Of a stretch of DNA of 64,000 bases, positions 15,809-64,000 are shown piece by piece. Source of the DNA: Cellvibrio sp. 79. Lineage in GTDB: Bacteria; Pseudomonadota; Gammaproteobacteria; Pseudomonadales; Cellvibrionaceae. The notes beneath the pieces are model-generated. The model worked only from the letters and a program-made list of their open reading frames with translations, was not told the DNA's origin and searched no databases. A program made the translations under genes and the position numbers. Location of the stretch: contig MVDH01000004.1 in the NCBI GenBank assembly GCA_003056245.1, forward strand, positions 1 to 64,000, given 5' to 3'. Each line of letters begins with the position of its first letter. Within the stretch, counting starts at the first letter, position 1.

Positions 15809-15885
15809 CAACTACTGCTCATCACAAACGAATGCTCAATACAAACTAATGCTCAATAAAAATTAATCAGGAGGCCAGCGCTTTC

Positions 15886-47601: not shown

Positions 47602-48022
47602 TGGCCACCGGTTCCAATCCCACGGCACTTACTGCCGACTAACCCTGAACAAACTATTTACTAAACAAAAAGGGATGTTTTCCGTCTTGGTAAATGCACA
47701 TGAAGGAGGATCGATCATATAGTCGATACGGTCCGAAGAGAGACCCGCGCAAAAGCGTAAGGCCTCAATCCGCTACTGTCAGGTTAACGCCCGGTTTTGA
47801 GCCTGGCATTAACCAAGCGGGGATGCGTTGATTTTTAGAGGGAGCATGACATCCAGGAATCGTTAAATCGACGGATGTATTTTTCGGCCTCTGCCTAACT
47901 GACGAAAGGAATGTCTACCTGCGTTTATTCCATTGCTTATCCAGACCGTCGCACGCTGATTGGTTATCGCTGGCTCCCTGATCTGTGCATTACTAAAACT
48001 CACTATCTCCCAGGACCATAGC
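47602..48022. promoter_or_regulatory. Divergent promoter region, exporter and siderophore receptor
   Basis: It holds a 10-bp stem with one mismatch, GGTTAACGCC (47782-47791) and GGCATTAACC (47805-47814). No convincing Fur box and no B12 riboswitch core could be found. The short plus-strand ORF at 47525-47722 lies mostly antisense to the exporter and is not supported. Confidence 0.4.
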
Positions 48023-50182
48023 ATGCAAAAAAAGTCTTTTCTCTGTTCTTCAAGCTTCACGCTTTCCCCCATTAACAGAGCCATACAACTCGCTTTACTC
48101 GGAATGGTTTTACCGGCCATTGCAATCAATGCGCAAGAGCAACCTGTCCGGGAAAAAGGTAAGTTACAAAAAGTGGTTATTTCGGATACCGAAGAAAAAG
48201 AGAGCAGTTTCACCGCAAAACAAAGTTCTACCGGCACTAAAACAGACACTCCCACCATCGAATCTCCCCAATCCATTTCTGTTGTGACCGCTGAGCGCGT
48301 GGAGGCTATCGGTGCGACCCGCTTGAAAGAAGCGTTAGCGTATACACCCGGCGTAAACACCGCGCCCTGGGGATCATCACATTACGACTGGATTTACCTG
48401 CGCGGCTTTGATGCTTACTCACCCGGTTTTCTGCGCGATGGATTGCCGCTACGCAACAGTATGGGCTGGGGCACCTGGATGACCGAGAGTTATGGTGTTG
48501 AGCGTTTTGATGTGATGCGCGGCCCTGCATCTGTACTCTACGGTCAAGCGGCTGCGGGTGGTGTGGTAAATGTTGTTAGCAAGCGCCCTTCCCCGATCGC
48601 CCAACGCGAAGTGCAAGTTCAGGTGGGTGACCATGATTGGAAGCAGGTTGCCGGTGATTTAACGGGTTCTTTGGCGGAAGACAACAGCGTTAGTTATCGC
48701 CTGGTTGGTTTGGCACGCGATGCGGAATTGCCGACAACAGAACGTCGTGACGATGAGTTATTCCTCGCACCTTCACTCGCGTGGGATATTTCAGCAAACA
48801 CAAACATTACCTTTCTGGGGGAATACCTTCGCATTCGTAACGGCACCGAAGCCGATTCATTACCGGTAAGGGGAACGCTGATTGATAACCCGAATGGCCC
48901 TATTTCACCGCGGACATTCAAGGGAGAGCCTGACCACAACCGTTATTACCAGGATCAATGGACTATCGGCTATGAGTTGGAACATGAAGCCAGCGACCGT
49001 TGGACATTCCGTCAAAATACTCGTTACGCCGAGTTTGATACCGATTACCGTACGGTTTACGGCACCGCCTTTAGAACGGTGGATGCAGCGAATCCAGCCA
49101 GCGCCGCCAACTTCCGCCTGATCAACAGAACCCCCCATCACACTGACGAAGAGGCAACGTCATTCACTATCGATAACCAATTGCAGGGTGATTTCCAATC
49201 CGGTAACTGGAGCCAAACCCTGTTAGTCGGCGTGGATTACCAACAGGCAAAATTTGATGTGTTCTCACGCTATGGTGGCGTGTTAGCCCCATTGGATCTT
49301 TACAACCCGGTTTATGGCAATCCCATCACCCTGGCCGCGCCACATATCGATGAGGAATTGGAACTGACCCAAACCGGCATCTATGCGCAGGATCAGATCA
49401 AGTTTAATGACCGTTGGGTGGTGACGTTGGGTGGGCGTTACGATGAAGTTGAAATCCGTGAAAAACAAGATGCGTTTTCCGGACGTGCCGGCCTTGTTTA
49501 CCTCGCGCCTAACGGCTTGGCGCCTTACATCAGCTATTCCGAATCTTTCCAACCGATTACCACGATAAATCCTGCGACGGGCAAGCCCTTTGATCCGGAA
49601 GAAGGCAAGCAAGAGGAAGCGGGTCTGCGTTACCAGCCCAATCAAAGCAGCAATATTTACAGCATTGCCGTCTTTGAAGCACAGCGCATGAACTACGTGA
49701 CCTATGGATACGAAACCGGCGTTCCGGTGCCCAAAGCGCGGGGAGAAGTGACGGTTCGCGGTGTAGAGCTGGAGGCAGTAGCGAAACCGACGGAGACATC
49801 AAACCTCATCGTCGCTTACACCTGGATTCCAAAAGCGGATATCACCAGCAGCGCCAACCCGGTGGAAGTTGGCAAACAACTCCAGGCGGTGTCCGAGCAT
49901 CAACTGTCGGTATGGGGTGATTATGCCTTTACCAATGGTTTCAAAACCGGTCTCGGCTTGCGTTATGTCGGTTCCAATAAAGGCACCCTGGAAGCGGCTC
50001 CACGTGAAGTTCCAGCCTACACACTGGCTGATCTAATGCTCGGCTATGAGTTCGACCATTGGGACTTCAGGGTCAATGTGCGCAATGCGGGCGATAAAGA
50101 GTTCGCGACGGTATGCGATGCACGGCAGTGTTTCTACGGCGCTCCGCGCTCGGTAATTGGCACCGTTGAATATCACTGGTAA
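48023..50182 (+). CDS. TonB-dependent siderophore receptor
   Basis: A 719-residue outer membrane receptor. Signal peptide to about residue 38 (AINAQE). The plug has TPTIESPQSISVVTAERVEA, LKEALAYTPGV, WIYLRGFDAYSPGFLRDGLPL and FDVMRGPASVLYGQAAAGGVVN, the pattern of FhuA/FoxA-type siderophore receptors; the barrel ends in VEYHW with an aromatic terminus. The ATG at 48023 follows CCAGGA at seven bases. Its position between a PvdE-type exporter and NRPS genes suggests uptake of the ferric form of the cluster product, or of a hydroxamate from other organisms. Confidence 0.88.
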   Translation: MQKKSFLCSSSFTLSPINRAIQLALLGMVLPAIAINAQEQPVREKGKLQKVVISDTEEKESSFTAKQSSTGTKTDTPTIESPQSISVVTAERVEAIGATRLKEALAYTPGVNTAPWGSSHYDWIYLRGFDAYSPGFLRDGLPLRNSMGWGTWMTESYGVERFDVMRGPASVLYGQAAAGGVVNVVSKRPSPIAQREVQVQVGDHDWKQVAGDLTGSLAEDNSVSYRLVGLARDAELPTTERRDDELFLAPSLAWDISANTNITFLGEYLRIRNGTEADSLPVRGTLIDNPNGPISPRTFKGEPDHNRYYQDQWTIGYELEHEASDRWTFRQNTRYAEFDTDYRTVYGTAFRTVDAANPASAANFRLINRTPHHTDEEATSFTIDNQLQGDFQSGNWSQTLLVGVDYQQAKFDVFSRYGGVLAPLDLYNPVYGNPITLAAPHIDEELELTQTGIYAQDQIKFNDRWVVTLGGRYDEVEIREKQDAFSGRAGLVYLAPNGLAPYISYSESFQPITTINPATGKPFDPEEGKQEEAGLRYQPNQSSNIYSIAVFEAQRMNYVTYGYETGVPVPKARGEVTVRGVELEAVAKPTETSNLIVAYTWIPKADITSSANPVEVGKQLQAVSEHQLSVWGDYAFTNGFKTGLGLRYVGSNKGTLEAAPREVPAYTLADLMLGYEFDHWDFRVNVRNAGDKEFATVCDARQCFYGAPRSVIGTVEYHW

Positions 50183-50325
50183 TTGAAAAATACCTGGTAG
50201 CCCGGTCTCGGGCTCATCAGGTCGCATCAAGCGATGGCCAGCCGCAGGCCGGTCATCTCCTTTCCCTAATGCCCCTACCCCTATGTAGCAAAGGCTAACT
50301 TTGATAATTGCACGGAGATAAAGTG

Positions 50326-52191
50326 ATGCAGAGTTCGACGATCAACCGGATTGCAGAGCGTTTTTCCCAATTGGGTGCCCAGGATCGTCGCACTGTATTT
50401 CAAAAGATCAGGCAGGAGGGAATGGCCATGAACCAGTTTCCAATCCTCCGCCGTGACAACACCATCCAGCACAAATGCCCGGCGTCCTATGCCCAGGCCC
50501 GCCAGTGGTTCCTCTGGCAGCTCGATCCGGATTCATCGGCCTACCATATCAGCGGTGCAATCTGGTTAACCGGTGAACTTAACCTGGAGGTTCTCAGGGA
50601 TAGTTTTGATGCCTTAATTCAACAACACGAATCACTGCGCACCCTGTTCAGGAGTGCAGATAACGGCAATGTTGAGCAGGTTATTCACGCTGCATCCCCG
50701 GTGAATTTCCGCCTGATCAACCTGACCGATGTAAAACCTGATGAAGACCCGGATGCGCGGATCAAAACTGAAGTCAGGCAGTTTCAGAATCAGCCATTTG
50801 ATCTTATGCATGGCCCCTTACTCCGTGTAGCGTTGATCAGGGAGGCGGCTAACAGACATCTGCTGGTAGTGGTGATGCATCACATCATTTCAGATGGTTG
50901 GTCGGTGCAAATCATGATCGAAGATTTCGCAGCGCAATATCGCGCACAGATACAGCACACTGCCGGGCACACAGAGAATGCGCCGATTCAATACGCGGAT
51001 TATGCAATCTGGCAACGGCATTGGCTGGAGGCCGGCGCGCAGGAGTCGCAACTGGAATATTGGAAATCGCATTTGGGGGATGTACGGCCGGTATTGCAAT
51101 TACCCACTGATCGCTCACCCCAACCGGGACATTATTCACATGCAGCGCACTATTCCCTGACGCTGTCATCGGCTGATATCAGCGTATTACGTGAACGCGT
51201 TAAAGCAGAGGGAACCACTTTTTTCACCATTCTTTTGGCGGCATTCCAGGGGTTGCTTTATCGCTACACCGGGCAGACCGAGATTCAAATCGGTGTTCCT
51301 AACGCGAATCGTTACAAAGCCGAAACCCGGCGAATTATCGGACTGTTCGTTAACACCCAAGTATTGGGTGCAACACTGAACGGTCGCACCCGCTTGGGCC
51401 AATTGCTACAGCAAACAATGTCGGCAATATCCGGAGCCCAAAGCCATCAGGATTTACCATTCGAACAATTGGTTGAAGCACTGCAACCGGAGCGTCATCT
51501 GGATAGCAATCCACTGTTTCAAGTGATGTTCAATCATCAACTCCAGGACCAGACCCCGCTGCAAGACCTGCCGGGCTTACAAGTCGAAGAATTCGCGCTG
51601 GAACCACAAAGTCCCCAATTTGATCTGGTGATCGACAGTACGGAAACCACTGGCGGTGAAGTGAGTTTGTTATTTACCTATGCGAAGGACCTGTTTAATC
51701 CGGACACGATCAGCCGTATGGCCGGGCATTATCTGGCGTTGTTGCGTGCATTGGCCGATTTGCCCGAGCAATGCCTGGGTGATGTGGAGTTGCTGGATGT
51801 GCGTGAGCAAGTCAATTTGCGTAATTGGGGTACAAAAGACGCACGATTTACCGATCTTAAACCCGTCCATAAATCCTTCGAACACCACGCCCGGACCAGT
51901 CCATCTGCACCGGCATTGGTCTTTGGCAACCAGCGCCTCACCTATGCCGAACTCAACAGCCGCGCGAATCGCCTTGCCCATCACTTGCGATTACTCGGCG
52001 TAACAACCGATGCGCGCGTGGGGATTGCAGTTGAGCGTTCGGTGGAAATGATTGTGGGCATGCTGGCCATCCTGAAAGCCGGCGGCGCCTACCTGCCGCT
52101 GGACCCGGAATTACCCAAAGACCGCCTCGCCTACATGATTGAAAACAGCAAGGTCACTTTGCTGTTAACCCACTACCTGGCCTGCGTTTGA
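50326..52191 (+). CDS. Truncated NRPS: condensation domain and start of an adenylation domain
   Basis: About 621 residues. An N-terminal helix region resembling the start of pyoverdine-type NRPSs (STINRIAERFSQLGAQDRR) leads into a complete condensation domain (about 50-490) with HHIISDG near residue 185. An adenylation domain then begins (LTYAEL and LKAGGAYLPLDPE) but stops at VTLLLTHYL, just after core motif A2. Motifs A3-A10 and the carrier domain are missing. The frame closes at 52189, and heterocyclization-domain coding resumes in another frame within about 20 bases. This is an internal deletion or an assembly fault rather than a natural end. Confidence 0.85.
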   Translation: MQSSTINRIAERFSQLGAQDRRTVFQKIRQEGMAMNQFPILRRDNTIQHKCPASYAQARQWFLWQLDPDSSAYHISGAIWLTGELNLEVLRDSFDALIQQHESLRTLFRSADNGNVEQVIHAASPVNFRLINLTDVKPDEDPDARIKTEVRQFQNQPFDLMHGPLLRVALIREAANRHLLVVVMHHIISDGWSVQIMIEDFAAQYRAQIQHTAGHTENAPIQYADYAIWQRHWLEAGAQESQLEYWKSHLGDVRPVLQLPTDRSPQPGHYSHAAHYSLTLSSADISVLRERVKAEGTTFFTILLAAFQGLLYRYTGQTEIQIGVPNANRYKAETRRIIGLFVNTQVLGATLNGRTRLGQLLQQTMSAISGAQSHQDLPFEQLVEALQPERHLDSNPLFQVMFNHQLQDQTPLQDLPGLQVEEFALEPQSPQFDLVIDSTETTGGEVSLLFTYAKDLFNPDTISRMAGHYLALLRALADLPEQCLGDVELLDVREQVNLRNWGTKDARFTDLKPVHKSFEHHARTSPSAPALVFGNQRLTYAELNSRANRLAHHLRLLGVTTDARVGIAVERSVEMIVGMLAILKAGGAYLPLDPELPKDRLAYMIENSKVTLLLTHYLACV

Positions 52192-52228: not shown

Positions 52229-55200
52229 TTGCACTTGAGTGTGGATGGCACCTTCCTCGATTTCCGTAGTTTCCTGATTTTGTTCCGCGAACTTATTTTG
52301 CTGTACAAGAGCCCGGATGAGCCGCTACCGGCACTTGAACTGAATTTCCGGGATTATGTGTTGACCCAGCGCGCGCAAGAATCCAGCCCGGCATACCAGC
52401 GCAGCCTTGCTTATTGGAGCAAGCGTATTGAGAGTATCGCGCCGGCGCCGGAATTACCGTTGGTGAAGAAGCCCTCGCAAGTTAAGAACCATCGCAGCAA
52501 GCGCTGGGAGAGCAGCCTGTCGATCAGCGACTGGAGTGCCTTTAAAGAGACCATGCAGCAACATGGTTTGACACAAGCGGCAACACTGTTGGCGGTGTAC
52601 GGCGAAGTGCTGGGCACCTGGAGTAGTAGTCCGCGTTTCTGTATCAACGTTCCGGTATTTAACCGTCAAGGTTGGCATAAGGATGTAAACCATGTGCTGG
52701 GTAATTTCTCCTCTTTTACCCTGGTGGAATTTGATTACAACCAGCCGTTAAGTTTTGTTGAGCGCGTGCGTGATGTGCAACGTCAGTTAATGGAGGGTTT
52801 GCAATATCACCACATTAGCGGTGTGCAGATCCTGCGGATGATCAACCAGGCGCGCGGCAAAATTGCTGCCGGTGCTTATCCCTGCGTATACACCAGCTTG
52901 CCATCGGGTGTGGATGAGTGGGATTCATCACTTAAATCCATGATTACTGGCGAGCTGGGTGAAATCAAATACACCATTAGCCAGACGCCGCAAGTGTGGA
53001 TTGATGTGCATGTGTGGTACGAAAGCGGTGGCCTGGAGTTCAACTGGGACGCTGTGGATGAGCTGTTCCCGACGGGCATGGTGGACTCCATGTTCGGCGC
53101 TTATTGCTCCATGATTGAAAACCTCGCAGCCCAGCCAGCGCTGTGGCAACAAACGCAAATTGATTTATTGCCAGCGCCCCAGCAACAACTTCTGGCTGAG
53201 GTTAATGCCACTGCCAAACCGGTGAATGAAGCACTGCTGCAAACCCTGTTTTATCGGGCGGCGGATCAATTCCCGCAGGAGTTGGCGCTGATCGGCAGCC
53301 AAACCGGCATCACCTATGCCCAATTGCGTGAGCAGGCCAACCGCCTGGCGCACCGCTTGCGTGCTGAGGGTGTGGTTCGCAACCAGTTAGTTGCCGTCGC
53401 CATGCCTAAATCGGCAGAGCAAATCATTGCAGTAATGGGGATTTTGATTGCTGGTGGTGCTTACTTGCCTATCGACCTGAACCAGCCGCAACCACGTATT
53501 GATTATGTGCTGGCGAATGGCCAGGTACGGATCGTATTGGTCGCTAATGACGAAGGTATGGCGCGCCAATGGCCGGAAACCGTACAGGTGTACCGCCTTG
53601 ATAATGCGCTCGCCGATAGCACAACTGACCTGGCGCCTATCCAGCAACAAAACGATCTCGCTTACGTACTTTATACCTCGGGTTCTACCGGTAAACCCAA
53701 GGGCGTGATGATCAGCCATCGCAATGTGGTGAACATGGTCGAACACACCAACGGTCATTTTGGTGTGAAAGCTGGCGACCGCGCGTTCAACATCACGGCG
53801 CTCAATCACGATTTATCGGTGTACGACATCTTCGGTTGCCTTGCAGCCGGTGCCGGTCTGGTTATTCCGGATGAAGACAAGCGTCGCGAACCAACGCATT
53901 GGTTTGAACTGATGCAAGCTCACCGCGTAACGCTGTGGAACTCGGTTCCGGCGTTGATGGATATGTTGCTTGAATCCAGTGACGAGCAAGCAACGCTAGC
54001 CGATTTGCGCGTAGTGATTCTCGGTGGCGATTGGGTTTCACCCACCTTGCCGGAGCGAATCCATCAACTGGCGCCAGCGGCGAATTTGTTGAGTATCGGC
54101 GGACCAACTGAAACCACGGTCTGGAATATCTGGTACTTCATGAATGAGGTGAAACCGGATTGGCCGAACATCCCCTATGGCAAACCCATCAGCAACAGCA
54201 AATATTTCATTCTGAACACCAGCGGCAAGCCTTGCCCGGTATGGGTGCCAGGCGAATTATGCGCGGCGGGCGAGGGTGTGGCGCAGGGTTATTTGAATGA
54301 TCCGGAAAACACGCAACGCAGTTTTGTGAATCACCCGTTCAACGGTGAACCTATCTATAAAACCGGTGATATGGGTCGCTACTTACCCGATGGCACCATC
54401 GAGTTTTTAGGCCGCAAGGACTTCCAGCTCAAGATTCGCGGCCAGCGCATCGAAGCGGGTGAAATTGAGCACGCACTGCTGGGATTCGAGGGCGTTGATA
54501 ACGCCGTTATCGTCGATGCCGGCGATGGTTTGCAAAAACACCTGGTTGCGCACATCGCGATGGAAGGCGTGCAACAAAACTTTGCCCAAGCGAATAAAAC
54601 CGCTGATTTCCTTAGCGATGATGAGCAGCAAGGCGTCATTACCAATGCGATCGAGCGTCTGGAGTTTACGTTATCCGAACGCGGCCGCCGCCATTTTGAT
54701 GCCAGCCATCAGCGTGTGGATTTTGCGGTCCAGTCAACGGATTTGAAATCGTATTTGCAGCGCCAAAGCTTCCGTCGTTTTGAGGGAGATATCACTCGCG
54801 AGACCTTGCAGCGTACCTTGTCATGCCTGTCGCTTGCGCGTCTCGAAGGTCAGGTTCTGCCTAAATATCGCTACCCGTCAGCGGGTGGTTTGTATCCGGT
54901 GCAAGCTTATGTGTTCGTTAAACCCGGTGCCATAAACGATCTGGCTGGCGGCTATTACTATTTCGATCCGGCGACCAGTGCATTGGTGCAACTAAACGAT
55001 CCGCTGGGTAGTGAGGAAGACTTATACGCAGGCTACCTAAAGCCACTCTATGCGGCAGCGGCATTTAGTCTCTACCTGGTTGCCGATCTGGATGCTATCC
55101 AGCCCATGTACGGGAAGGTTGCACAGGATTTCTGCTTTATCGAAGCGGGTTATATGGGCCAATTGTTGATGGCGGAGTCTGCCAATCATCTGGTGGGTAT

Positions 55201-55891
55201 CTGCCCGGTGGGTGGTTTGGAAGAGCAGGATGCGTTCCGCAACGCGCTGCAACTGGGTGGCTCCCATCGTATTGTCCACAGCTTCACTGGCGGCGGTATC
55301 ACCGCGGAACAGCAAGAGTACTGGCTGGAGAAACCGCGTTCACAGGCCGATGACGCTGACGCCACTCAGGACACGGTGAACAACCTGAGCCTGGATGAGC
55401 AAATCCTCGAGCATCTGCGCCTGTTTGTTCCTGAATACATGCTGCCAACCCGTATTGTTTTCCACGACAAATTGCCGCTTACCGACAATGGCAAAGTGGA
55501 TCGCAAAACCTTGCGCGAAAACTCCAATCAAGTGGCCAGCGTACGCGCTGAAGAAGCCTACGTTGCGCCAGCAACACCGATGGAACAGCGCTTCGCAGAG
55601 GTGCTGGCCGATATCCTGGGCCTGCCGCGCATCAATGTTGAAGGCAACTTCTTTGAGATGGGGGCTAACTCCATTCACATGGTGCGAATCCAGAAGCGCT
55701 TTAAGGATGAGTTGGGGCGCGAGCTGGCAGTAACGGATTTATTCCGTTACCCGACACTGCGCAGCCTGGTTGCTTTCCTGGATAAAGATCCGGATGAAAA
55801 GCGCGATCTCAGTGAAAGCAGGGAACGAGCGGCGAAACGTGCCGCCGCCCGTGGCCGTAACCGCAGCGCTGCCGAAACGGAGGAGGTGTAA
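52229..55891 (+). CDS. NRPS module Cy-A-oxidase-PCP, 5'-truncated
   Basis: A 1220-residue ORF; homologous coding (FDVRASLLDDGRIR) extends upstream to about 52169 without a start, so the N-terminus is cut. The heterocyclization domain keeps its DGTFLDFRS (DxxxxDxxS) motif. The adenylation domain (about 345-800) has YTSGSTGKPKGVM, and the pocket residues D, L, Y in HDLSVYD and N in LWNSVP match the cysteine code DLYN. An McbC/SagB-type nitroreductase domain is inserted near 820-1045 (KYRYPSAGGLYPVQAYVF). The peptidyl carrier has FFEMGANSIHMVRI. Expected chemistry: cysteine loading, thiazoline formation, oxidation to thiazole. Confidence 0.85.
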   Translation: MHLSVDGTFLDFRSFLILFRELILLYKSPDEPLPALELNFRDYVLTQRAQESSPAYQRSLAYWSKRIESIAPAPELPLVKKPSQVKNHRSKRWESSLSISDWSAFKETMQQHGLTQAATLLAVYGEVLGTWSSSPRFCINVPVFNRQGWHKDVNHVLGNFSSFTLVEFDYNQPLSFVERVRDVQRQLMEGLQYHHISGVQILRMINQARGKIAAGAYPCVYTSLPSGVDEWDSSLKSMITGELGEIKYTISQTPQVWIDVHVWYESGGLEFNWDAVDELFPTGMVDSMFGAYCSMIENLAAQPALWQQTQIDLLPAPQQQLLAEVNATAKPVNEALLQTLFYRAADQFPQELALIGSQTGITYAQLREQANRLAHRLRAEGVVRNQLVAVAMPKSAEQIIAVMGILIAGGAYLPIDLNQPQPRIDYVLANGQVRIVLVANDEGMARQWPETVQVYRLDNALADSTTDLAPIQQQNDLAYVLYTSGSTGKPKGVMISHRNVVNMVEHTNGHFGVKAGDRAFNITALNHDLSVYDIFGCLAAGAGLVIPDEDKRREPTHWFELMQAHRVTLWNSVPALMDMLLESSDEQATLADLRVVILGGDWVSPTLPERIHQLAPAANLLSIGGPTETTVWNIWYFMNEVKPDWPNIPYGKPISNSKYFILNTSGKPCPVWVPGELCAAGEGVAQGYLNDPENTQRSFVNHPFNGEPIYKTGDMGRYLPDGTIEFLGRKDFQLKIRGQRIEAGEIEHALLGFEGVDNAVIVDAGDGLQKHLVAHIAMEGVQQNFAQANKTADFLSDDEQQGVITNAIERLEFTLSERGRRHFDASHQRVDFAVQSTDLKSYLQRQSFRRFEGDITRETLQRTLSCLSLARLEGQVLPKYRYPSAGGLYPVQAYVFVKPGAINDLAGGYYYFDPATSALVQLNDPLGSEEDLYAGYLKPLYAAAAFSLYLVADLDAIQPMYGKVAQDFCFIEAGYMGQLLMAESANHLVGICPVGGLEEQDAFRNALQLGGSHRIVHSFTGGGITAEQQEYWLEKPRSQADDADATQDTVNNLSLDEQILEHLRLFVPEYMLPTRIVFHDKLPLTDNGKVDRKTLRENSNQVASVRAEEAYVAPATPMEQRFAEVLADILGLPRINVEGNFFEMGANSIHMVRIQKRFKDELGRELAVTDLFRYPTLRSLVAFLDKDPDEKRDLSESRERAAKRAAARGRNRSAAETEEV

Positions 55892-55892
55892 G

Positions 55893-58800
55893 GTGAATAA
55901 GGACTATGAAGGTCGTATAGCGATTGTGGGGCTGGCGGGCAGAATGCCCAATAGCGGCAATCTCGATGAATTTTGGCAAGCGTTGGTGGAGGGAAAATCC
56001 CTCCTTACCACGCTGGACGAGAATGCATTGATTGCGGCAGGCGTACCTGAATCGGTACGTCGCCACCCTAATTACATTCCCGTCGCCAGCAGCATGGCGG
56101 ACATCGATTGTTTCGATCACAACTTTTTCGGCTATAGCTTGCGTGAAGCAGCCATTATCGACCCGCAGCAACGCATCCTGCTTGAATTGGCCCATGAAGC
56201 CTTTGAACACGCGGGCTATGTACCTGACCAGATTGATGCCAAAGTCGGGGTGTATCTGGGCAGCGGTTATTGCAATTACCTGGTGAATAATTTGAGCGGT
56301 GATATTGATCCCAACGATCAATTATCCGGCTTGCAAATTTTGATGGGTAACGACAAGGAATACGCAACAACCCGTATTTCCTACAAGCTCAATTTAAAAG
56401 GCCCGAGTGTTTCCGTGAACTCGGCCTGCTCCACATCGCTGGTAGCGATTCACCAGGCGTGCCGCGCATTACAAGCCTATGAATGCGATTACGCACTGGC
56501 TGGCGCTGCAAAAGTGAACATCCCCAATCTGGTCGGTTACACCGCCCAGGAAGGTGGAATCAGTTCGAAGGACGGCACTTGCCGGCCTTACGATGCGGAT
56601 GGCACCGGTCCCGTCTTTGGCAGCGGCGCGGGTGTCGTGGTATTAAAGCGAATTGAAGACGCTATTGCCGATGGTGATGCAATCTATGCCGTTATTCGCG
56701 GCAGTGCGGTCAATAACGATGGCTCTTCCAAAGTCAGTTTTTCGGCCCCCAGCACCGATGGACAAATAGAAGTTATTGCCGATGCATTGGCTGATGCGGG
56801 AGTAGCGGCAACTGCAATCGGTTATGTGGAAGGGCACGGGACGTCGACGCCGCTGGGTGATCCCATTGAAGTTTCCGCATTAAGCGAACTTTATAAATCG
56901 GAAGGTGTTGCCACTGGCAGTTGTTATCTGGGTTCGGTGAAAGCCAATGTGGGGCATTTGGAAGCCGCTGCTGGTATGGCAGGCTTATTCAAAGTGATCT
57001 ACGCGCTGCGCAATAATGTGGTTCCACCGCAACTTAATTTTCGCAGCCCGAATAAAAATATTCCGTTGGCGCAAACACCCTTCACGATTAATCAACACGC
57101 AACTGCATGGCCAGGTTCACCGACCGATAAACGTTTGGCCGCACTCAGTTCATTTGGAATCGGCGGTACCAATGGCCATTTGATTTTGCAGTCTTATCAA
57201 TCGGCAGAGCCGCAATCCCCGACAATTTCCGGCCCCATTGTGTTGCCGTTTTCTGCAACGACGGATGAACAGGTTGCAACAATACAAGCGGCTTACCAGA
57301 TCCATTCGCTAACAGAAGACTCATTGGCCTCTGTTGCGTTAACAGCTGCATTGGGCCGACAACATTATGCAAAACGTAAAGCGTTTGTTGCAGAAAACTA
57401 CAACGACTTGCAACAACAATTGCAACAAGGTGGAGTTGACGCGGCAGAAGCGATAACACTTGCGCTGACTGTGACCGATTGGAATACCAATGAATGGCAA
57501 TCAGATAATTCAATGCTTGCCACCAGCTTGCGCAGTTATGCGCGCCGTGCTGAAAAAACAATTACTGACATTATCAACACCAATGCATTGGCAAACAATG
57601 TATTAACACGTTTACCTGCCGCGACAGTTCCGCTGCTGGCTTATGCTCTCTGGGTAAAGAACAGCGGCATTCATCTTTCTGCCATTTACACCGATACAGT
57701 AAGCCTGCCGGTAACTGCTTTTCTAGCGGGTAGTTTGACACTCGAAGACGCTATTCTCGCCCTGTTGATCAGTCATGGGGTGGCCGCTGGCAAATCGATA
57801 AAAGCGATTAACCTGGGGCAAAGCGCAATAAAAATTGTTGATTTACATAGCCAAAAAACGATTTCCGGTTATTGGGCACCTCAACCGATAATAACATCGG
57901 CTGTTGCTACTGCGGCAGGAAAATTGCCCAAGGTTGATGTGGTGTTAGGCTCTGCACCGACAACGATAATTAATCGCAATCTGTTGCAACTTATTGCGCG
58001 CGCCTATGTTCGTGGTGATCGAATAAATTGGCGTTCGATTTATCGCGGACTCTCGTTGCCTAAAGTTTCATTGCCCACTTATCCTTTTGCAAAAATCAGT
58101 TGCTGGATTGATCCTAAAACAAAAGCAGGTAGTTCCCTCGCTCAAGCCGTTGCACAGGATTCAATTAAAGCATTCAGCAAAAACACATTGGTTGAGCATA
58201 TTGCCAGCTTTGTCCGGCTCCCGGCGGAAACGCTCACCGGATCAATGCAATTCCAGCGCGATTTGTTGATGGAATCGATGATGATTGCCGAATTCAATGC
58301 GTCTTTGAAAACTGTATTTGGTTTGAATGGCAGTGTTCCGCTCGCGTTTTATTTTGAAGGCGGTGACATTGATAACCTGTTTGCAAAACTGCAACACATT
58401 CCGGTGCTCGATCAATCCGATACTGTAATTGATACACAGCAAGCGGGCGTAGCACTTGCGCAAATTTCCCACTGGCGAGAAACCTCAATATTTCCCGCGC
58501 TACAGCGGTTAGAGCGTCGTCTGGTACATAAACATTTTGATAAAAATGTATTGGTGGCCAGAACGGCGTCGCTCGGCAGTAATTTATTTATTGCCGAAAT
58601 TACCCAAGATGTCGCTCACGAATATTACTACGAACATGCGCAAGATCATGTGCCCGGTTTATACATGATTGAAGCCGCGCGCCAGGCCGCAACCGCCATC
58701 GTGCATCAATTTTACGATGTACCTTATGGCTACAAGTTTATCCTCAACGATTTGCAATCCAGCTTCAGCGGTTTTGCGGAACTTGATGCGCCGCTGTTCC

Positions 58801-58976
58801 TCAGTATCAGCTTTCAAAATCTGGTGAAAGAAGAGGGCGTGCTTAAGCGTGCACTCGCACAGGTTGAATTTATTCAAGGAGATAAAGTCATTGGCACAAT
58901 GCAATCACAAGCCGTTATTTTTGAACCGAAAAACTATAACCATGTCCGCGATGGGCATGCCGTTATCGCGGGGTAA
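55893..58976 (+). CDS. PKS: ketosynthase, degenerate acyltransferase, ACP and AfsA domain
   Basis: A 1027-residue protein; GTG start with AGGAGG seven bases upstream, one base after the NRPS stop. The KS (about 5-430) is intact: Cys179 in SACSTSL, His315 in EGHGTSTPLGDP, His355 in NVGHLEAAAG. Residues about 440-690 resemble an AT, but the GHSxG nucleophile block reads YTDTVSLP, so it should be inactive. An ACP-like domain has Ser795 in DLLMESMM. The last 150 residues (LVHKHFDKNVLVA, GLYMIEAARQAATAIVHQFY, PYGYKFIL) are an AfsA hotdog domain, which in Streptomyces condenses a beta-ketoacyl chain with dihydroxyacetone phosphate. Confidence 0.85.
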   Translation: MNKDYEGRIAIVGLAGRMPNSGNLDEFWQALVEGKSLLTTLDENALIAAGVPESVRRHPNYIPVASSMADIDCFDHNFFGYSLREAAIIDPQQRILLELAHEAFEHAGYVPDQIDAKVGVYLGSGYCNYLVNNLSGDIDPNDQLSGLQILMGNDKEYATTRISYKLNLKGPSVSVNSACSTSLVAIHQACRALQAYECDYALAGAAKVNIPNLVGYTAQEGGISSKDGTCRPYDADGTGPVFGSGAGVVVLKRIEDAIADGDAIYAVIRGSAVNNDGSSKVSFSAPSTDGQIEVIADALADAGVAATAIGYVEGHGTSTPLGDPIEVSALSELYKSEGVATGSCYLGSVKANVGHLEAAAGMAGLFKVIYALRNNVVPPQLNFRSPNKNIPLAQTPFTINQHATAWPGSPTDKRLAALSSFGIGGTNGHLILQSYQSAEPQSPTISGPIVLPFSATTDEQVATIQAAYQIHSLTEDSLASVALTAALGRQHYAKRKAFVAENYNDLQQQLQQGGVDAAEAITLALTVTDWNTNEWQSDNSMLATSLRSYARRAEKTITDIINTNALANNVLTRLPAATVPLLAYALWVKNSGIHLSAIYTDTVSLPVTAFLAGSLTLEDAILALLISHGVAAGKSIKAINLGQSAIKIVDLHSQKTISGYWAPQPIITSAVATAAGKLPKVDVVLGSAPTTIINRNLLQLIARAYVRGDRINWRSIYRGLSLPKVSLPTYPFAKISCWIDPKTKAGSSLAQAVAQDSIKAFSKNTLVEHIASFVRLPAETLTGSMQFQRDLLMESMMIAEFNASLKTVFGLNGSVPLAFYFEGGDIDNLFAKLQHIPVLDQSDTVIDTQQAGVALAQISHWRETSIFPALQRLERRLVHKHFDKNVLVARTASLGSNLFIAEITQDVAHEYYYEHAQDHVPGLYMIEAARQAATAIVHQFYDVPYGYKFILNDLQSSFSGFAELDAPLFLSISFQNLVKEEGVLKRALAQVEFIQGDKVIGTMQSQAVIFEPKNYNHVRDGHAVIAG

Positions 58977-58978
58977 TT

Positions 58979-59641
58979 ATGAATTCCAATAAGCCGGTAA
59001 TTGCTGTTTATGACTTTGATGGAACCATTACGGATCGCCACACCTTCTGGCGCTTTTTGCGCGAGCTGACGGGGCCATTCAAATTCTGGTACATCGTGAT
59101 CACCATGGTTCCCTGGGTTTTCGGAATTTATTATCGCGGCACTTCGATCATGGATGCGCGTGAAGTGCTTATTCGTCGTTTATTGAAAGGCACAACAAAA
59201 AAACGTTTTTATGAAGTCAGTCATCAGTTTGCGCGCGAACAAATTCCATTATGGGTTAAACCGGAAGCAAAGGTATCTATTGCGCATCACCTGGCAGAAG
59301 GCCATGTTTTACTGTTAATCAGCAATAGTGCATCAAGCTATTTAAAACCCTGGGCGAATACGATGGGGTTCCATCAGGTGTACGGTTCGGAATTTGAATT
59401 TGATGCGCGTGAAAAAATGACGGGTGAATTGTCAGGTACACATTGTCAGGGCGCTGAGAAATTAAAACGCCTCAAAGAATATCTAGGCAATCTGGATGAT
59501 TTTGAATTGCACATATTCGGTGATAGCGAAGGCGACCTCGATATGTTGGAAGCAGCCGATTTTGCTTACTACCTGACATTTGCAGAGATCCATCGCAATG
59601 ATCAACGAAATGTAGCCTGGGCTAATGGAGGTGTGCAATGA
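58979..59641 (+). CDS. HAD-IB family phosphatase of the biosynthetic cluster
   Basis: A 220-residue HAD hydrolase with the nucleophile motif YDFDGTIT (residues 10-17), motif II LLISNSASSYL and motif III GDSEGDLDML, of the SerB-like IB subfamily. It starts two bases after the PKS stop and its end overlaps the monooxygenase start (ATGA). In AfsA-type pathways a phosphatase removes the phosphate left from dihydroxyacetone phosphate, as MmfP does in methylenomycin furan synthesis. That is a strong contextual role, though a general housekeeping phosphatase cannot be excluded. Confidence 0.85.
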   Translation: MNSNKPVIAVYDFDGTITDRHTFWRFLRELTGPFKFWYIVITMVPWVFGIYYRGTSIMDAREVLIRRLLKGTTKKRFYEVSHQFAREQIPLWVKPEAKVSIAHHLAEGHVLLLISNSASSYLKPWANTMGFHQVYGSEFEFDAREKMTGELSGTHCQGAEKLKRLKEYLGNLDDFELHIFGDSEGDLDMLEAADFAYYLTFAEIHRNDQRNVAWANGGVQ

Positions 59642-61314
59642 ATGATATTGCCGTAGTGGGCGCAGGCCCGGTTGGTTTGACATTAGCTTGCATACTGGCG
59701 AGCAGCGGTCAGCAAGTAACGGTGTATGAGCGTGAAAAAAGCAAGCCGGCATTTTCCAAAGCATTTGCATTGCATGCGCGCACATTAGAGTTGTTTCGCG
59801 ATCTTGGCGTGGCCGATGAACTGTTATCCCAAGGGCGGGCAATTCGTCGAATGAGTATTTATTCCGAAGCGCAACGCTTGGGAACGGTAGACTTCCGGCA
59901 TCTCGAAAGTGAATTTCCATTTTTTCTCAGCATTCCGCAGTATCAATTGGAAAATATTTTACGTGAGCGATTATTGGCGCTGGGCGGTGAAGTTTCTTGG
60001 AATAAAAAAGTGGTGGCGATTCAACAATCACTTACCGATGCAATTGATGTCGGCGTAACTGTTGAAGACGAAACAGGGCAATACACCCATCGCCATAGCT
60101 ACGTTATTGGTTGCGATGGCGCGCACAGCGCGGTACGTAAACTGATCGATAGCAAATTCAGCGGCGATACCTATGACAGCGAGTTTTTAGTTGTTGATGC
60201 GCACATTCGCTGGGCGGGAAATAAATACGAAGCCCATACGTTTTTATCCGCTAAAGGTTATTTGATGGTAATGCCTTTTCCCGGCCTTAAACATCGAATT
60301 GTGACCGATTTGCAGGCCGGGCAATTTTCAGCGCCGCCAACGCTGGAGCAGGTTCACGAATTGCTGGCGGAAAAAGGATTCAAGGATATTCAGTTGTACG
60401 ATGCAGAGTGGATCAGCAACACTCGCTACCACAAACGAATGGCCGACAAATTTCGCGTAGGGCGTGTATTCCTGGCTGGGGATTCTTGCCACATTCATAG
60501 CCCCGTTGGTGGGCAGGGTTTGAATACCGGTATCCAGGATGCGTTTAATCTCGGGTGGAAATTGGCAGCGGTAATATCCGGTGATGCACCAGTACGGTTG
60601 CTTGATACCTATGAGCAGGAGCGTCGCGTTATTGCGCAACAGGTGCTCGATAATACCGACGCAATGACCAAACGCTTCGCCGATAAAAGCCCATTCAAAA
60701 TTGCATTGCGAAAATGGCTGTTGCCCATGGTTTTTTCATCACCCAAAGTGCAGCGAAAACTGGCAATGAATGCATCCGGCGTGGCGATTGGAAATCCTGT
60801 TTCTGCGGCGACTATTCCGGTAACCGGCAACTCTCTTTTGAAACCGGGTCAGCGCTTGCCCGATGTAAAAGTTAACGATGGTAATAGCCAGCAGTGGTTG
60901 CATCGTATATTGCCTGCCAATAATTATTCCGTGTTATTGATTGCAAAAAATAATGTACCTGCACAGGTGATTGAAACAGCAACAGCGTTATCTTCTCACT
61001 ATCTTGCCCATCCCAAAATTATTCAGTTGGGCGCTAATCTGGTATTGGGGAGTCGTAAGCAATCAAACGATCAATGGCAAGTGGGCCAACTTGAAAAAAT
61101 CCTTAATAAAGAGTTGGCAGTAGTGATTGTTCGTCCGGATAAATATATTGCCTATGTCTGTGAATCATTCAATGAAACTGAATTAACGAAAGTCTTCAAT
61201 CAACTATTTAATCCAATTTCTGCGCTCCAAAATCATTCGTCCCTGATAACCCTTGGGTTATCAACTCATCAACAATCCAATCATAAGGAGGCTAGCAATG
61301 AAGTGGTACTTTAA
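59638..61314 (+). CDS. FAD-dependent aromatic-type monooxygenase
   Basis: A 558-residue flavoprotein of the p-hydroxybenzoate hydroxylase/PheA class: VGAGPVGLTLACIL at the N-terminus, IGCDGAHSAVRKLI (DG motif) near 160-175, and FLAGDSCHIHSPVGGQGLNTG (GD motif) near 279. A C-terminal thioredoxin-like domain covers about 395-535. It overlaps the HAD gene by 4 bases and the transporter gene by 17. It probably hydroxylates or oxidises the released product; the acceptor is unknown. Confidence 0.88.
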   Translation: MNDIAVVGAGPVGLTLACILASSGQQVTVYEREKSKPAFSKAFALHARTLELFRDLGVADELLSQGRAIRRMSIYSEAQRLGTVDFRHLESEFPFFLSIPQYQLENILRERLLALGGEVSWNKKVVAIQQSLTDAIDVGVTVEDETGQYTHRHSYVIGCDGAHSAVRKLIDSKFSGDTYDSEFLVVDAHIRWAGNKYEAHTFLSAKGYLMVMPFPGLKHRIVTDLQAGQFSAPPTLEQVHELLAEKGFKDIQLYDAEWISNTRYHKRMADKFRVGRVFLAGDSCHIHSPVGGQGLNTGIQDAFNLGWKLAAVISGDAPVRLLDTYEQERRVIAQQVLDNTDAMTKRFADKSPFKIALRKWLLPMVFSSPKVQRKLAMNASGVAIGNPVSAATIPVTGNSLLKPGQRLPDVKVNDGNSQQWLHRILPANNYSVLLIAKNNVPAQVIETATALSSHYLAHPKIIQLGANLVLGSRKQSNDQWQVGQLEKILNKELAVVIVRPDKYIAYVCESFNETELTKVFNQLFNPISALQNHSSLITLGLSTHQQSNHKEASNEVVL

Positions 61315-63652
61315 AGCAGTGGTGGATCGACCGAAACTAACCCTGGTGTTGATTTTAATTGTTACTTTATTAATGGGAGCAGGTTTGCCTAACCTGAAAA
61401 TTCGTAACAATTCTGATTCCGAATTGCCTGAGACTGATCCTATCGTTCTAACCAAAAATAAAATCGACGGAATTTTTGGCGATAAAAGTGCGGTGCTTAT
61501 CGGTATCAAAACCGACAATATTTACAACACGCGCACATTGGAAAAAATTGCAGCTATTTCACTTGAATTGCAAAAAGTGGATAAGGTTATCCCCAATGAA
61601 ATTACCAGTCTTTCTACGGTAAATAACGTTGCCGGGAATGAGGAAGGGCTGGAAGTCGGTGTGCTGATGAAGGAGGTCCCCAGAACTCAGGAAGATATTG
61701 ATGCGTTAAAAAATATCGTTGAAATGAACGATATGATTCGCGGATCGCTGGTGTCAAAAGATCACACTTTTACCGCGATAGTTGCCAATCTTGAAGAGGG
61801 CGCTGACCAGGCAGCTATCCATAAACAAGTTTATGAACTTATCGAAAAATACCAGGGGCCTGAGACTATCTATGCCTCGGGAGAAAAAATATTCGCCCAG
61901 GAAATTGATTCGGGTGTGCAACAGGATTCAAACGTACTCACCCCGATTTCATTACTGGTAATCATGTTGGTTCTCTATTTCTTTTTGCGCTCTGCTCGCG
62001 GTGTTGCATTGCCCTGGCTGGCGATTGTGTTGAGTATCGTCTGGACACTGGGTTTTATGGGGCACATGGGCATTATGCAAAGTGTGGTCACATCTATGTT
62101 GCCCGCGTTGCTGGTGATTATTGGTAGCTGTTTCGCCATCCATATTATGTTGCATTATTACAAAGCAACGGCGGATAAAAATATTACGCCCAGGGACGCT
62201 GCCTATGTTTCTGTCGTTCATCTTATTCGCCCACTAGTGCTTGCCGGTGTTACCAGTTCATTGGGTGCCAGTAGCCTGGTGGTATTTGAAGTGTTATCGA
62301 TTCGTGAATTCGGATTAATTTTTACCATTGCCATTTTGTTTTCACTGTTTCTGTGCATGACTGTTATTCCTGCCTTCCTGGCGTTATTAAAAGTACAAGT
62401 TCGGGATATGGATGACATTAAAGGCACTCAATGGCTTACCGGATTTTTGCGTTGGTCAACCGATATCAGTGTTCGTCGGCCATGGATAGTGCTCAGTATT
62501 TTCATCGTAATTTTTGCTGTGTCGCTGGTGGGTATCAGCAGAATTAAAACCGGCCTTGATGTCGCCAGTATATTTCCGGATGGTCATCGCGGAAAAGTTT
62601 CACTGGATTCTTTCGGCGAAAACCTGGGTGGTGTGCGCGTGCTGAGCGTGATGATTGAGGCACCGGAATCAGAAGGAATTAAAAGCCCTGAATACCTGAA
62701 AAAAATTGCTGATTTTGAGCAATTTATGAAAGAGCAACATGGCGTCGGGCATGTTACGTCGTTCACCGATGTGGTAATGCAAGTTGCAAAATCCCTGCAT
62801 CCCGAATGGGGCGGAGTGGGGCGTATTCCGGAAACCCAGGATGAAATTGCGCAGTATTTATTTCTCTATGATATTTCCGGTACACCCGGCGATTTCGCCA
62901 ATCTGGTTGACTACGATTATCGTCGTGCGCGAATTCAAATCACCCTCGATACATCAGATCCGGATGATCACAGGCGTATTTACCAAACGGCCCGTGACTA
63001 TTGGGATAAAAATTTACCGGCAGCAGGTAAAGCAGAATTTGGTGGCGACACTTTATTCTGGATTGCTCAATCCGCTTATGTTGTTGAAGGAAAAATCTGG
63101 AATGTTATTACATCGGTCTTCACCATTCTTCTGTTTGTTGCACTGGTGTATCGATCACTGACTGCCGGATGGGTGAGTGTGATCCCGGTGGTTATTGGTG
63201 GTGTTGTTACATTCGGAATTATGGGCTTCTGTGGTATTCGCCTTGATATCGCAGCTGCATGTATATCCGGTGTGACTGCGGGTATAGGTATCGATTTCTC
63301 ACTGCATTATCTCGATAGTATTCGTAAATATGGACGATCCGGCTCAACGATTAAAGTTGCTTGCGATGAAACACAAATGCTGGTTGGCAGGGCGATTGTT
63401 TATGACGCACTCACCAATACTCTCGGCTTCCTGGTAGTAACACTTTCCGGGTTTGTGATTGTTAAAAACTTCGGCTACTTGCTGGCCATCGCAATGGCAA
63501 CAACGTCAATCACGGTCATTGTCTTAATGCCGGTATTGTTGTTATTAGTGAAGCCCAAATTTATCTCTACGGATGCCGCTTTCTGGCGAGTCAGGCCTAT
63601 CGCCAAATCCACAGATTCTATTCCTGAAAATATTTCCACTGCGATTAACTAA
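61298..63652 (+). CDS. MMPL/RND-type lipid or product exporter
   Basis: A 784-residue transporter with twelve membrane helices in two repeats of six, each after a large periplasmic loop (about 35-225 and 430-600). MMPL features include RNNSDSELPETDPIV in loop 1, the helix pair SLGASSLVVFEVLSIREFG, and GITAGIGIDFSLHYLDSIRKYG-like sequence near the end. AAGGAGG directly precedes the ATG at 61298; the upstream start at 61253 is rejected. Members export hydrophobic metabolites or lipids. The next gene encodes a LolA-like protein, the frequent partner. Confidence 0.87.
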   Translation: MKWYFKAVVDRPKLTLVLILIVTLLMGAGLPNLKIRNNSDSELPETDPIVLTKNKIDGIFGDKSAVLIGIKTDNIYNTRTLEKIAAISLELQKVDKVIPNEITSLSTVNNVAGNEEGLEVGVLMKEVPRTQEDIDALKNIVEMNDMIRGSLVSKDHTFTAIVANLEEGADQAAIHKQVYELIEKYQGPETIYASGEKIFAQEIDSGVQQDSNVLTPISLLVIMLVLYFFLRSARGVALPWLAIVLSIVWTLGFMGHMGIMQSVVTSMLPALLVIIGSCFAIHIMLHYYKATADKNITPRDAAYVSVVHLIRPLVLAGVTSSLGASSLVVFEVLSIREFGLIFTIAILFSLFLCMTVIPAFLALLKVQVRDMDDIKGTQWLTGFLRWSTDISVRRPWIVLSIFIVIFAVSLVGISRIKTGLDVASIFPDGHRGKVSLDSFGENLGGVRVLSVMIEAPESEGIKSPEYLKKIADFEQFMKEQHGVGHVTSFTDVVMQVAKSLHPEWGGVGRIPETQDEIAQYLFLYDISGTPGDFANLVDYDYRRARIQITLDTSDPDDHRRIYQTARDYWDKNLPAAGKAEFGGDTLFWIAQSAYVVEGKIWNVITSVFTILLFVALVYRSLTAGWVSVIPVVIGGVVTFGIMGFCGIRLDIAAACISGVTAGIGIDFSLHYLDSIRKYGRSGSTIKVACDETQMLVGRAIVYDALTNTLGFLVVTLSGFVIVKNFGYLLAIAMATTSITVIVLMPVLLLLVKPKFISTDAAFWRVRPIAKSTDSIPENISTAIN

Positions 63653-63669: not shown

Positions 63670-64000
63670 ATGTTGAAAAAACACTTGGTCGCGATACTTT
63701 TATTATCGTCTGCGTCTTCCTGCGTGCTTGCTAATATGAGCCCTAAAGATGTCATGCTGGCTAACGAGGCTTCACGTAAAAGTATTACTGAAATGTCTAA
63801 TATGAAAATGACATTAACCAACGCAAAAGGCGATTCCCGTGTGCGCGATGTACTGTTGCTGATTGATGACAGTAACCCTCTTGCACGAAAAACCTACTTG
63901 CACTTTGAAACACCACGCGATGTGAAAGATGTACGTATTTTGACGCTTGAGTCAGAAGCACTCGAGTCGGATGATGACCGCTGGTTATATTTGCCGGCAA
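63670..64000 (+). CDS. Outer membrane lipoprotein-sorting (LolA-like) protein, partial
   Basis: 110 codons are visible before the window edge. The signal peptide runs through LLLSSASSCVLA. The rest (MKMTLTNAKGDSRVRDVLLL, ARKTYLHFETPRDVKDVRIL, DDRWLYLPA) matches the periplasmic LolA/LppX-like fold often encoded after MMPL transporters. GAGGAG lies before the ATG, 17 bases after the transporter stop. It may carry the hydrophobic product across the periplasm. The C-terminus is outside the window. Confidence 0.82.
   Translation, partial: MLKKHLVAILLLSSASSCVLANMSPKDVMLANEASRKSITEMSNMKMTLTNAKGDSRVRDVLLLIDDSNPLARKTYLHFETPRDVKDVRILTLESEALESDDDRWLYLPA

Follow-up and report, generated by a model that had tools for sequence, protein, structure and literature searches.

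Bases 1 to 64,000 of contig C10 (313,560 bp; genome 5.7 Mb) of Cellvibrio sp. 79, here called the window, encode the second half of a hybrid nonribosomal peptide synthetase (NRPS)-polyketide synthase (PKS) assembly line whose last protein ends in an AfsA domain. We consider it probable that this line releases a fatty-acyl thiazolyl beta-ketoacyl chain onto dihydroxyacetone phosphate (DHAP), yielding a butenolide that would then be dephosphorylated, oxidised and exported. An initial annotation, drawn from the letters of the window, had already proposed AfsA offloading of a thiazolyl beta-ketoacyl chain and dephosphorylation by a HAD enzyme. Homology, a conserved gene neighbourhood and a natural AfsA-HAD fusion lend weight to that proposed chemistry, but its picture of the line was incomplete: it covered the second half, and the line starts with a fatty acyl-AMP ligase, which is encoded on a different contig, C6, of this genome.

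A terminal ketosynthase protein ends in an AfsA domain

The releasing protein occupies an open reading frame (ORF) at 55770-58976, with a likely GTG start at 55893, one base after the NRPS stop. The initial annotation had placed a ketosynthase (KS), an acyl carrier protein (ACP) and an AfsA domain in this one polypeptide; the KS, the carrier serine and AfsA were indeed found, together with an acyltransferase (AT) remnant between KS and ACP that had been overlooked. The KS matched ketoacyl-synt at 1.2e-66 and its Cys and His motifs are intact. The AT remnant lacks the GHSxG serine; hhalign aligned it with a probability of 98.9 across the KS-AT linker, the AT and the post-AT linker, a value due in part to the linkers, which lie in the aligned span. 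Pfam does not detect the divergent ACP in the window protein, recognises it in one homologue (genome G031) and scores it below the cut-off in another (G387); the carrier serine is present in all 10 of the fused proteins compared below (5 by pattern, 5 by reading the stretches). The AfsA domain follows the ACP directly, with no terminal thioesterase domain in the module.

The C-terminal domain matched PF03756 at 1.3e-34 (119.5 bits against a cut-off of 24), and Pfam returned no dehydratase family (FabA, FabZ or PKS dehydratase) at E 0.1 or better in the window protein. The glutamate and arginine of the EAxRQ motif were invariant in 27 of 27 aligned domains, and the motif occurs in 10 of 10 fused proteins. 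We take these two residues to be essential in ScbA; no statement of the essential residues of that enzyme was seen in the papers listed on it. An AlphaFold model (pLDDT 88.6) gave a single FabZ-like hotdog, with the FabZ and FabA dehydratases as nearest solved folds, and a search against PDB sequences returned seven chance-level matches, to T-cell receptor chains. By profile and motif the domain belongs to the AfsA (PF03756) family, and the identity first given to it stands.

A phosphatase and a monooxygenase accompany the fused AfsA domain

The tightly coupled HAD phosphatase and succeeding FAD monooxygenase of the initial annotation were borne out. The four core genes are spaced 1, 2 and minus 4 bases apart; the HAD gene starts 2 bases past the AfsA stop and the ATG of the monooxygenase gene overlaps the HAD stop, and we therefore regard the coupling as real. 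The phosphatase matched PF12710 at 1.7e-30 and TIGR01490 at 110.5 bits (cut-off 98.3), carries the motifs DFDGT, SNS and GDSEGD, and by these comparisons is a HAD-IB phosphatase. The monooxygenase gave a strong FAD_binding_3 match; among the 25 NCBIfam matches listed for it, every family was below its own cut-off.

A single-sequence search with the window's AfsA domain found no match in the genome collection. Searching with a five-row alignment (A2) recovered 40 loci, in 9 of which AfsA is fused behind a KS: those of Andreprevotia chitinilytica, Microbulbifer litoralis, Pseudomonas cyclaminis, Pseudomonas sp. GM79, Pseudoalteromonas byunsanensis, two contigs of gammaproteobacterial metagenome-assembled genomes (MAGs; G031 and G387), a Gloeobacterales MAG and Aphanocapsa lilacina. 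Whether a HAD gene always follows such a fusion, as the initial annotation had asked, could be answered for this set: a HAD-type gene lies directly behind AfsA in 10 of 10 loci (the window and the nine). The gene was matched in 7 of the 9 both by tblastn with the window's HAD protein and by a profile built without the other fused-locus HADs. The two cyanobacterial loci have a HAD-like ORF at this position, and the one that was scanned is of HAD-IA type. One MAG (locus L073, G387:C8:88817-91882), among the seven, encodes KS-ACP-AfsA-HAD as a single protein of 1,021 residues. In the other 31 loci, where AfsA is not fused to a KS, tblastn gave 0 matches and the profile 3.

The conserved set extends further. 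LolA-like genes were present in 7 of the 9 fused loci and MMPL genes in 6, with no MMPL found in the Andreprevotia locus or the two cyanobacterial loci. All nine have an FAD-monooxygenase-like gene, which is shorter (429 residues) in the two cyanobacteria, so that the released ring is probably modified further. The same count favours a variant in which the AfsA step proceeds as proposed and the intermediate is then rearranged, with the FAD monooxygenase involved, to a furan or a 4-hydroxybutenolide; AfsA-type intermediates have been described as leading to butyrolactones, methylenomycin furans and 4-hydroxy-3-methylbutenolides (PMC7756379). We regard that outcome as possible, if somewhat doubtful.

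Free-standing AfsA genes occur in 25 of 144 genomes of the window's family. Of five such loci that were fetched, four (L026-L029) have an adjoining HAD-type gene (FFDVDDT), a conserved neighbourhood and, by eye, response-regulator-like genes; butyrolactone-like signalling in this Gram-negative family is a possible reading of their gene content.

The preceding module has the features of a thiazole-forming NRPS

The module that the initial annotation read as Cy-A-oxidase-PCP (heterocyclisation, adenylation, oxidase and peptidyl carrier protein) has all of these domains where they had been placed, with the qualification that Cy is cut and its N-terminus is found on C6. In Pfam, ORF 52229-55891 matched Condensation over profile positions 143-455 of 456, the N-terminus being absent, followed by AMP-binding (2.7e-89), a Nitroreductase-type oxidase (8.6e-12) and PP-binding (1.5e-13). 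Its motifs DGTFLDFRS, HDLSVYDIF, WNSVPALM and GGPTETTVW are near-identical in two other lines, and the first fits DxxxxDxxS, which we take to be the Cy motif for thiazole formation. The A-domain positions, assigned by eye, read D L Y N I G I V W; compared with the cysteine code DLYNLSLIW, 5 of 9 are identical, 3 similar, and one is G for S. With a Cy motif, a probable cysteine-type A domain, an oxidase of the FMN (nitroreductase) type and a PCP, this is by sequence a thiazole-forming module, and it probably activates cysteine and forms the thiazole. Cysteine is likely rather than proved, because the positions were mapped by eye.

Contig C6 carries the first half of the line

In the window the N-terminal third of the Cy domain is missing, and ahead of it, in a different frame, stands an unrelated fragment with condensation and adenylation domains (C-A); the cut falls at about 52,174-52,183. 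In Microbulbifer litoralis (G080), of the same family, one protein of 3,111 residues reads KS-AT-DH-KR-ACP-Cy-A-oxidase-PCP (DH, dehydratase; KR, ketoreductase). Contig C6 (21,206 bp) contains an ORF that shares 58.9% identity with residues 1-1,885 of that protein. This ORF exits the contig at base 1 with ...MSHQVLPLDTWP, and the window resumes with ...TWPAFDVRASLL in its codon phase, the final ten bases of C6 being those of window positions 52,174-52,183. C6 also encodes a fatty acyl-AMP ligase with an ACP and a KS-KR-ACP protein, in the gene order seen in Microbulbifer; its first module has no Pfam AT and its second has one. A gene in the C6 flank (14914-15810) adjoins argS in the relatives G021 and G015 and lies about 53 kb from argS in G027, and in the window's genome argS is found on the right-hand side of the cluster. 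On the strength of protein continuity, codon phase and argS synteny, C6 most likely continues into the right part of the window. The stretch left of about 52,174 would accordingly be misjoined or rearranged, because C6 ends in phase where the window's Cy begins; an assembly error at 52,174-52,183 is the likeliest explanation, and a real rearrangement is possible.

If the rearrangement were real, recombination within Cy would have broken the line in this strain and the window would hold a pseudogene cluster. The join is internal to the contig and its two sides share ten bases, the kind of trace expected from microhomology recombination. Moreover, the nearest relative (61% identical) of a left-side gene, 44018-45667, is found in the close relative G027, some 10 kb away from argS, which holds for this one of seven relatives, so that the left side need not be foreign to the argS neighbourhood and might be a moved piece of the region. 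Against this, C6 stops exactly at the join and does not continue into the remainder of the cut A domain; its flank gene adjoins argS in G021 and G015, as expected if C6 and the window are contiguous; and the left-side gene's relative in G021 is far from argS (4.41 Mb versus 0.54 Mb). We judge a genuinely broken line unlikely. For another left-side gene, none of the 7 relatives searched gave a match. No remainder of the cut A domain turned up at contig ends among 26 PF00501 hits in the genome, and the partial hits starting at profile positions 112, 168 and 204 are, as far as their coordinates tell, not at contig ends.

Proposed pathway

We propose that the fatty acyl-AMP ligase, with its ACP, loads a fatty acid, which a KS-KR-ACP module and then a KS-AT-DH-KR-ACP module would extend. 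Cy-A-oxidase-PCP would add cysteine and convert it to a thiazole, and the KS/AT remnant/ACP would add a final malonyl unit, supplied in trans, with the beta-keto group kept. The AfsA domain would then move the beta-ketoacyl chain from the ACP to a hydroxyl of DHAP, with closure to a butenolide phosphate; the HAD enzyme would strip the phosphate, the FAD monooxygenase would oxidise the product, and the MMPL and LolA-like proteins may carry it across the envelope. Malonyl for modules 1 and 4 must then come in trans, module 1 having no Pfam AT and module 4 no working one; as a guess, the donor is the module-2 AT or one of the genome's other AT hits, of which there are six in all, including a 314-residue, FabD-sized ORF.

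Several observations weigh against this pathway. Cy is broken at 52,174-52,183 in the present assembly, so the line would be functional only if the join is an artefact, and the proximity of one left-side gene's relative to argS in G027 has been described above. Only 5 of the 9 A-domain positions match the code for cysteine, and three of the other four are similar. The window's ACP is divergent, and the last module is without a working AT, only one of the six genome AT hits (that of module 2) lying in the cluster. The AfsA domain is a single PF03756 stretch with one hotdog repeat, where a GblA-type enzyme is described with two. Finally, it scored 62.8 bits against the cut-off of 200 for the NCBIfam ScbA/BarX equivalog NF041195.

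The divergent ACP also fits a line in which the last KS-AT remnant-ACP does not extend, AfsA taking the thiazolyl thioester itself or some other partner, as does the absence of a GHSxGE motif from 8 of 8 proteobacterial fused proteins (in G387 the whole AT region is absent); the motif is present in the 2 cyanobacterial ones. However, the KS motifs are intact and the ACP serine is retained throughout the fused set, a stand-alone AT gene is present in the G031 locus, and the AfsA reactions described in print take 3-keto thioesters (PMC7756379). A non-extending last module therefore seems to us quite improbable. Least credible, and in our estimate very improbable, is that the C-terminal hotdog is a dehydratase of the FabZ/FabA kind or a thioesterase drifted towards AfsA, with a hydrolytic end by type II thioesterase and an unrelated HAD: the nearest solved folds, a catalytic glutamate in the PGxxxxE spacing of FabZ and a type II thioesterase gene downstream speak for it, but the PF03756 match came with no FabA or PKS dehydratase family, the EAxRQ arginine never varies, the last module has no KR to yield a hydroxyl for dehydration, and a HAD-type gene is directly next in every fused locus and fused in one.

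Distribution and relatives

Thiazole lines like that of the window are, by their domain content, also present in Microbulbifer litoralis and Andreprevotia chitinilytica. A Cy match was obtained in these two, that is, in at least 2 of the 9 fused loci, a lower bound because the flanks searched were at most 10 kb and some contigs ended before that. The C6 ligase has a counterpart with 64% identity in the Andreprevotia genome, at 542-544 kb of contig C1, which is just upstream of locus L064 (550,915-571,403) if C1 is the L064 record. In a tree of AfsA domains the three thiazole lines cluster (support 92/85), and Andreprevotia, a betaproteobacterium, stands next to the window with weak support (83/41), a placement that suggests horizontal transfer. 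The fused state costs 2 changes on this tree; a single origin of the KS-AfsA fusion could still be entertained.

PF03756 was found in 28 of 144 family genomes, in ORFs of more than 1,000 residues in 3 of them. In the order sample it was present in 15 of 390 genomes, with ORFs of that size in G000 and G387 and, of another type, in five more, where a protein of about 2,500 residues reads ligase-ACP-KS-AT-...-thioesterase-AfsA-AfsA (scanned in 1 of the 5). In the phylum sample 2 of 398 genomes were above the cut-off. A tblastn search of plasmids with the whole protein gave 1,277 records, none spanning 80% of the query, and in the best 10 of these the alignments stop before the AfsA domain. Three loci of the same order (L055, L056 and L057; family f28) encode single proteins, each some 2,500 residues long, that end in AfsA; the one scanned, that of L055, contains a fatty acyl-AMP ligase, an ACP, a KS, an AT, a thioesterase and two AfsA stretches. 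By eye, their methyltransferase-, epimerase- and PEP-synthase-like neighbours resemble those near the free AfsA gene of Streptomyces clavuligerus (L062).

Relation to known systems

The initial annotation knew of no Gram-negative system with this fusion, which does not hold. In Burkholderia gladioli, AfsA has been shown to be the release domain of the gladiofungin line (PMC7756420), and the fused AfsA of the gladiostatin line (GdsF) releases 3-ketothioesters with DHAP in vitro (PMC7756379). As described, these PKSs have, like the window's, a C-terminal AfsA behind an ACP instead of a thioesterase domain, and phosphatase genes in the cluster. Their last module has no AT (trans-AT), compared with an AT remnant here, and they make glutarimide polyketides without a thiazole. 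These two systems are known to us by description, in which a fatty acyl-AMP ligase start is not mentioned and the phosphatase is not described as fused to AfsA or directly behind it.

Terminal AfsA domains are also described in orphan PKS and PKS/NRPS lines of Gloeobacter, Paenibacillus and Ruminiclostridium (PMC7756420). Our loci L066 and L067 are probably of that kind; they have no thiazole module within the fetched flanks, a working-AT GHSVGE motif and, in L066, a HAD-IA in place of HAD-IB. PKS 1 of Pseudomonas Ps664 is described as A / T / KS-AT-KR-T-KS-AT-KR-T / KS-AfsA / TE, where T denotes thiolation and TE thioesterase (PMC8719888), a further Gram-negative KS-AfsA protein; there it is a separate protein after an activating A/T start, and the described line has no Cy-A-oxidase-PCP. 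Loci L068 and L070 look alike to it.

The A-factor and gamma-butyrolactone synthases AfsA, ScbA and MmfL share the PF03756 family and the chemistry of DHAP with a 3-keto thioester; they are free-standing, have two repeats where described, and make signalling molecules. GblA is described with two AfsA repeats (PMC5735094). AfsA stands beside a HAD-IB gene in Chromobacterium subtsugae, within a quorum-controlled set (PMC12114271), and the afsA cluster of Ruegeria pomeroyi is reported as required for killing competitors (PMC7426152); the Ruegeria locus (L063) has a HAD-IB gene by annotation. These free pairs, like those of the window's family, have the same gene pairing and, as described, no assembly line. 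The Streptomyces alkyloxazole (AOX) NRPS similarly joins an alkyl tail to an azole head, its authors predict thiazole variants, and they term this signalling system non-AfsA in origin (PMC13367870).

For a thiazole line with AfsA release, no description was found among the open-licence papers listed, which were covered mostly at the level of titles and the first lines of abstracts. Acaterin, a Pseudomonas butenolide with a C3 unit, was a lead that yielded no biosynthesis paper among those listed for it. New by sequence, then, are the fatty acyl-AMP ligase start on C6, the thiazole line in two other genera, the HAD-type gene next to AfsA in 10 of 10 loci and the natural fusion of the two. More tentatively, and with rather less than even confidence, we suggest a horizontally shared Gram-negative family of lipid lines, composed of fatty acyl-AMP ligase, PKS, optional thiazole module, KS-ACP-AfsA, HAD, FAD monooxygenase and MMPL/LolA, that would make envelope-routed fatty butenolides. 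The AfsA and HAD steps would be tightly coupled in it, and the two are one protein in one member; the thiazole version would unite azole and butenolide signalling head groups in one lipid.

Release by AfsA is a rare way of ending assembly lines, the published products found being, as described, the Burkholderia gladioli glutarimides. If the proposed pathway is true, a compact single-hotdog AfsA accepting a thiazolyl chain, with its own phosphatase, in one case within a single protein, would be useful for preparing butenolides in vitro, and a single polypeptide would then serve to establish in which order release, dephosphorylation and closure of the ring take place. The conserved cassette also serves as a search handle, one scan having given 9 fused loci among 40.

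Gene layout of the window

The features of the window are listed in Table 1.

Table 1. Position and basis of assignment of features in the window
Feature	Coordinates	Strand	Basis
TonB-dependent siderophore receptor, FoxA/FhuA-like	47960..50182	+	Pfam; NCBIfam TIGR01783, 319 bits (cut-off 223.5)
NRPS fragment C-A; A domain ends at profile position 99/384	50308..52191	+	Pfam, junction analysis
Contig join	52174..52183	.	Ten bases TACCTGGCCT common with the C6 end; in Cy codon phase
Cy(part)-A-oxidase-PCP	52229..55891	+	Pfam, motifs
KS - AT remnant - ACP - AfsA, terminal extending/releasing protein	55893..58976	+	Pfam, NCBIfam, alignment A1, hhalign
Putative phosphopantetheine serine S795, motif ESM, divergent ACP	58275..58277	+	Invariant in four-row alignment A1
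AfsA single hotdog domain	58521..58910	+	PF03756, 124.3 bits in genome search; alignments A1, A3; AlphaFold model
E927 and R930 of EAxRQ motif	58671-58673 and 58680-58682	+	Alignments A1, A3
HAD-IB phosphatase	58979..59641	+	PF12710, TIGR01490, motifs
FAD-dependent aromatic-hydroxylase-type monooxygenase	59638..61314	+	PF01494 (FAD_binding_3), 3.9e-79
MMPL-family exporter	61253..63652	+	PF03176; start probably downstream of first TTG
LolA-like periplasmic protein, start	63670..64000 (contig 63670-64503)	+	ORFs; Pfam

For the MMPL exporter, the NCBIfam HAE3 and HpnN families were below cut-off. Beyond the window lie genes for a porin-like protein, a type II thioesterase, a short-chain dehydrogenase/reductase and a LuxR-like protein, to about 69,475, and later argS; these labels come from a Pfam run on four ORFs, the LuxR-like label having been given by eye. 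The porin-like protein (C10 64,611-65,969; 452 residues), for which Pfam and NCBIfam gave no match, also stands beside the LolA-like gene in L064, L065 and L073.

To the left of the join, the C-A ORF was considered as module 1 of the line and rejected: a KR region directly precedes Cy in Microbulbifer and Andreprevotia, and C6 supplies that part. A siderophore role by way of the adjacent TonB receptor was set aside on the same evidence, and the receptor probably stands outside the thiazole line. The ABC exporter, FoxA-like TonB receptor and C-A fragment at 45,808-52,191 resemble the start of a separate siderophore NRPS cluster, severed by the join.

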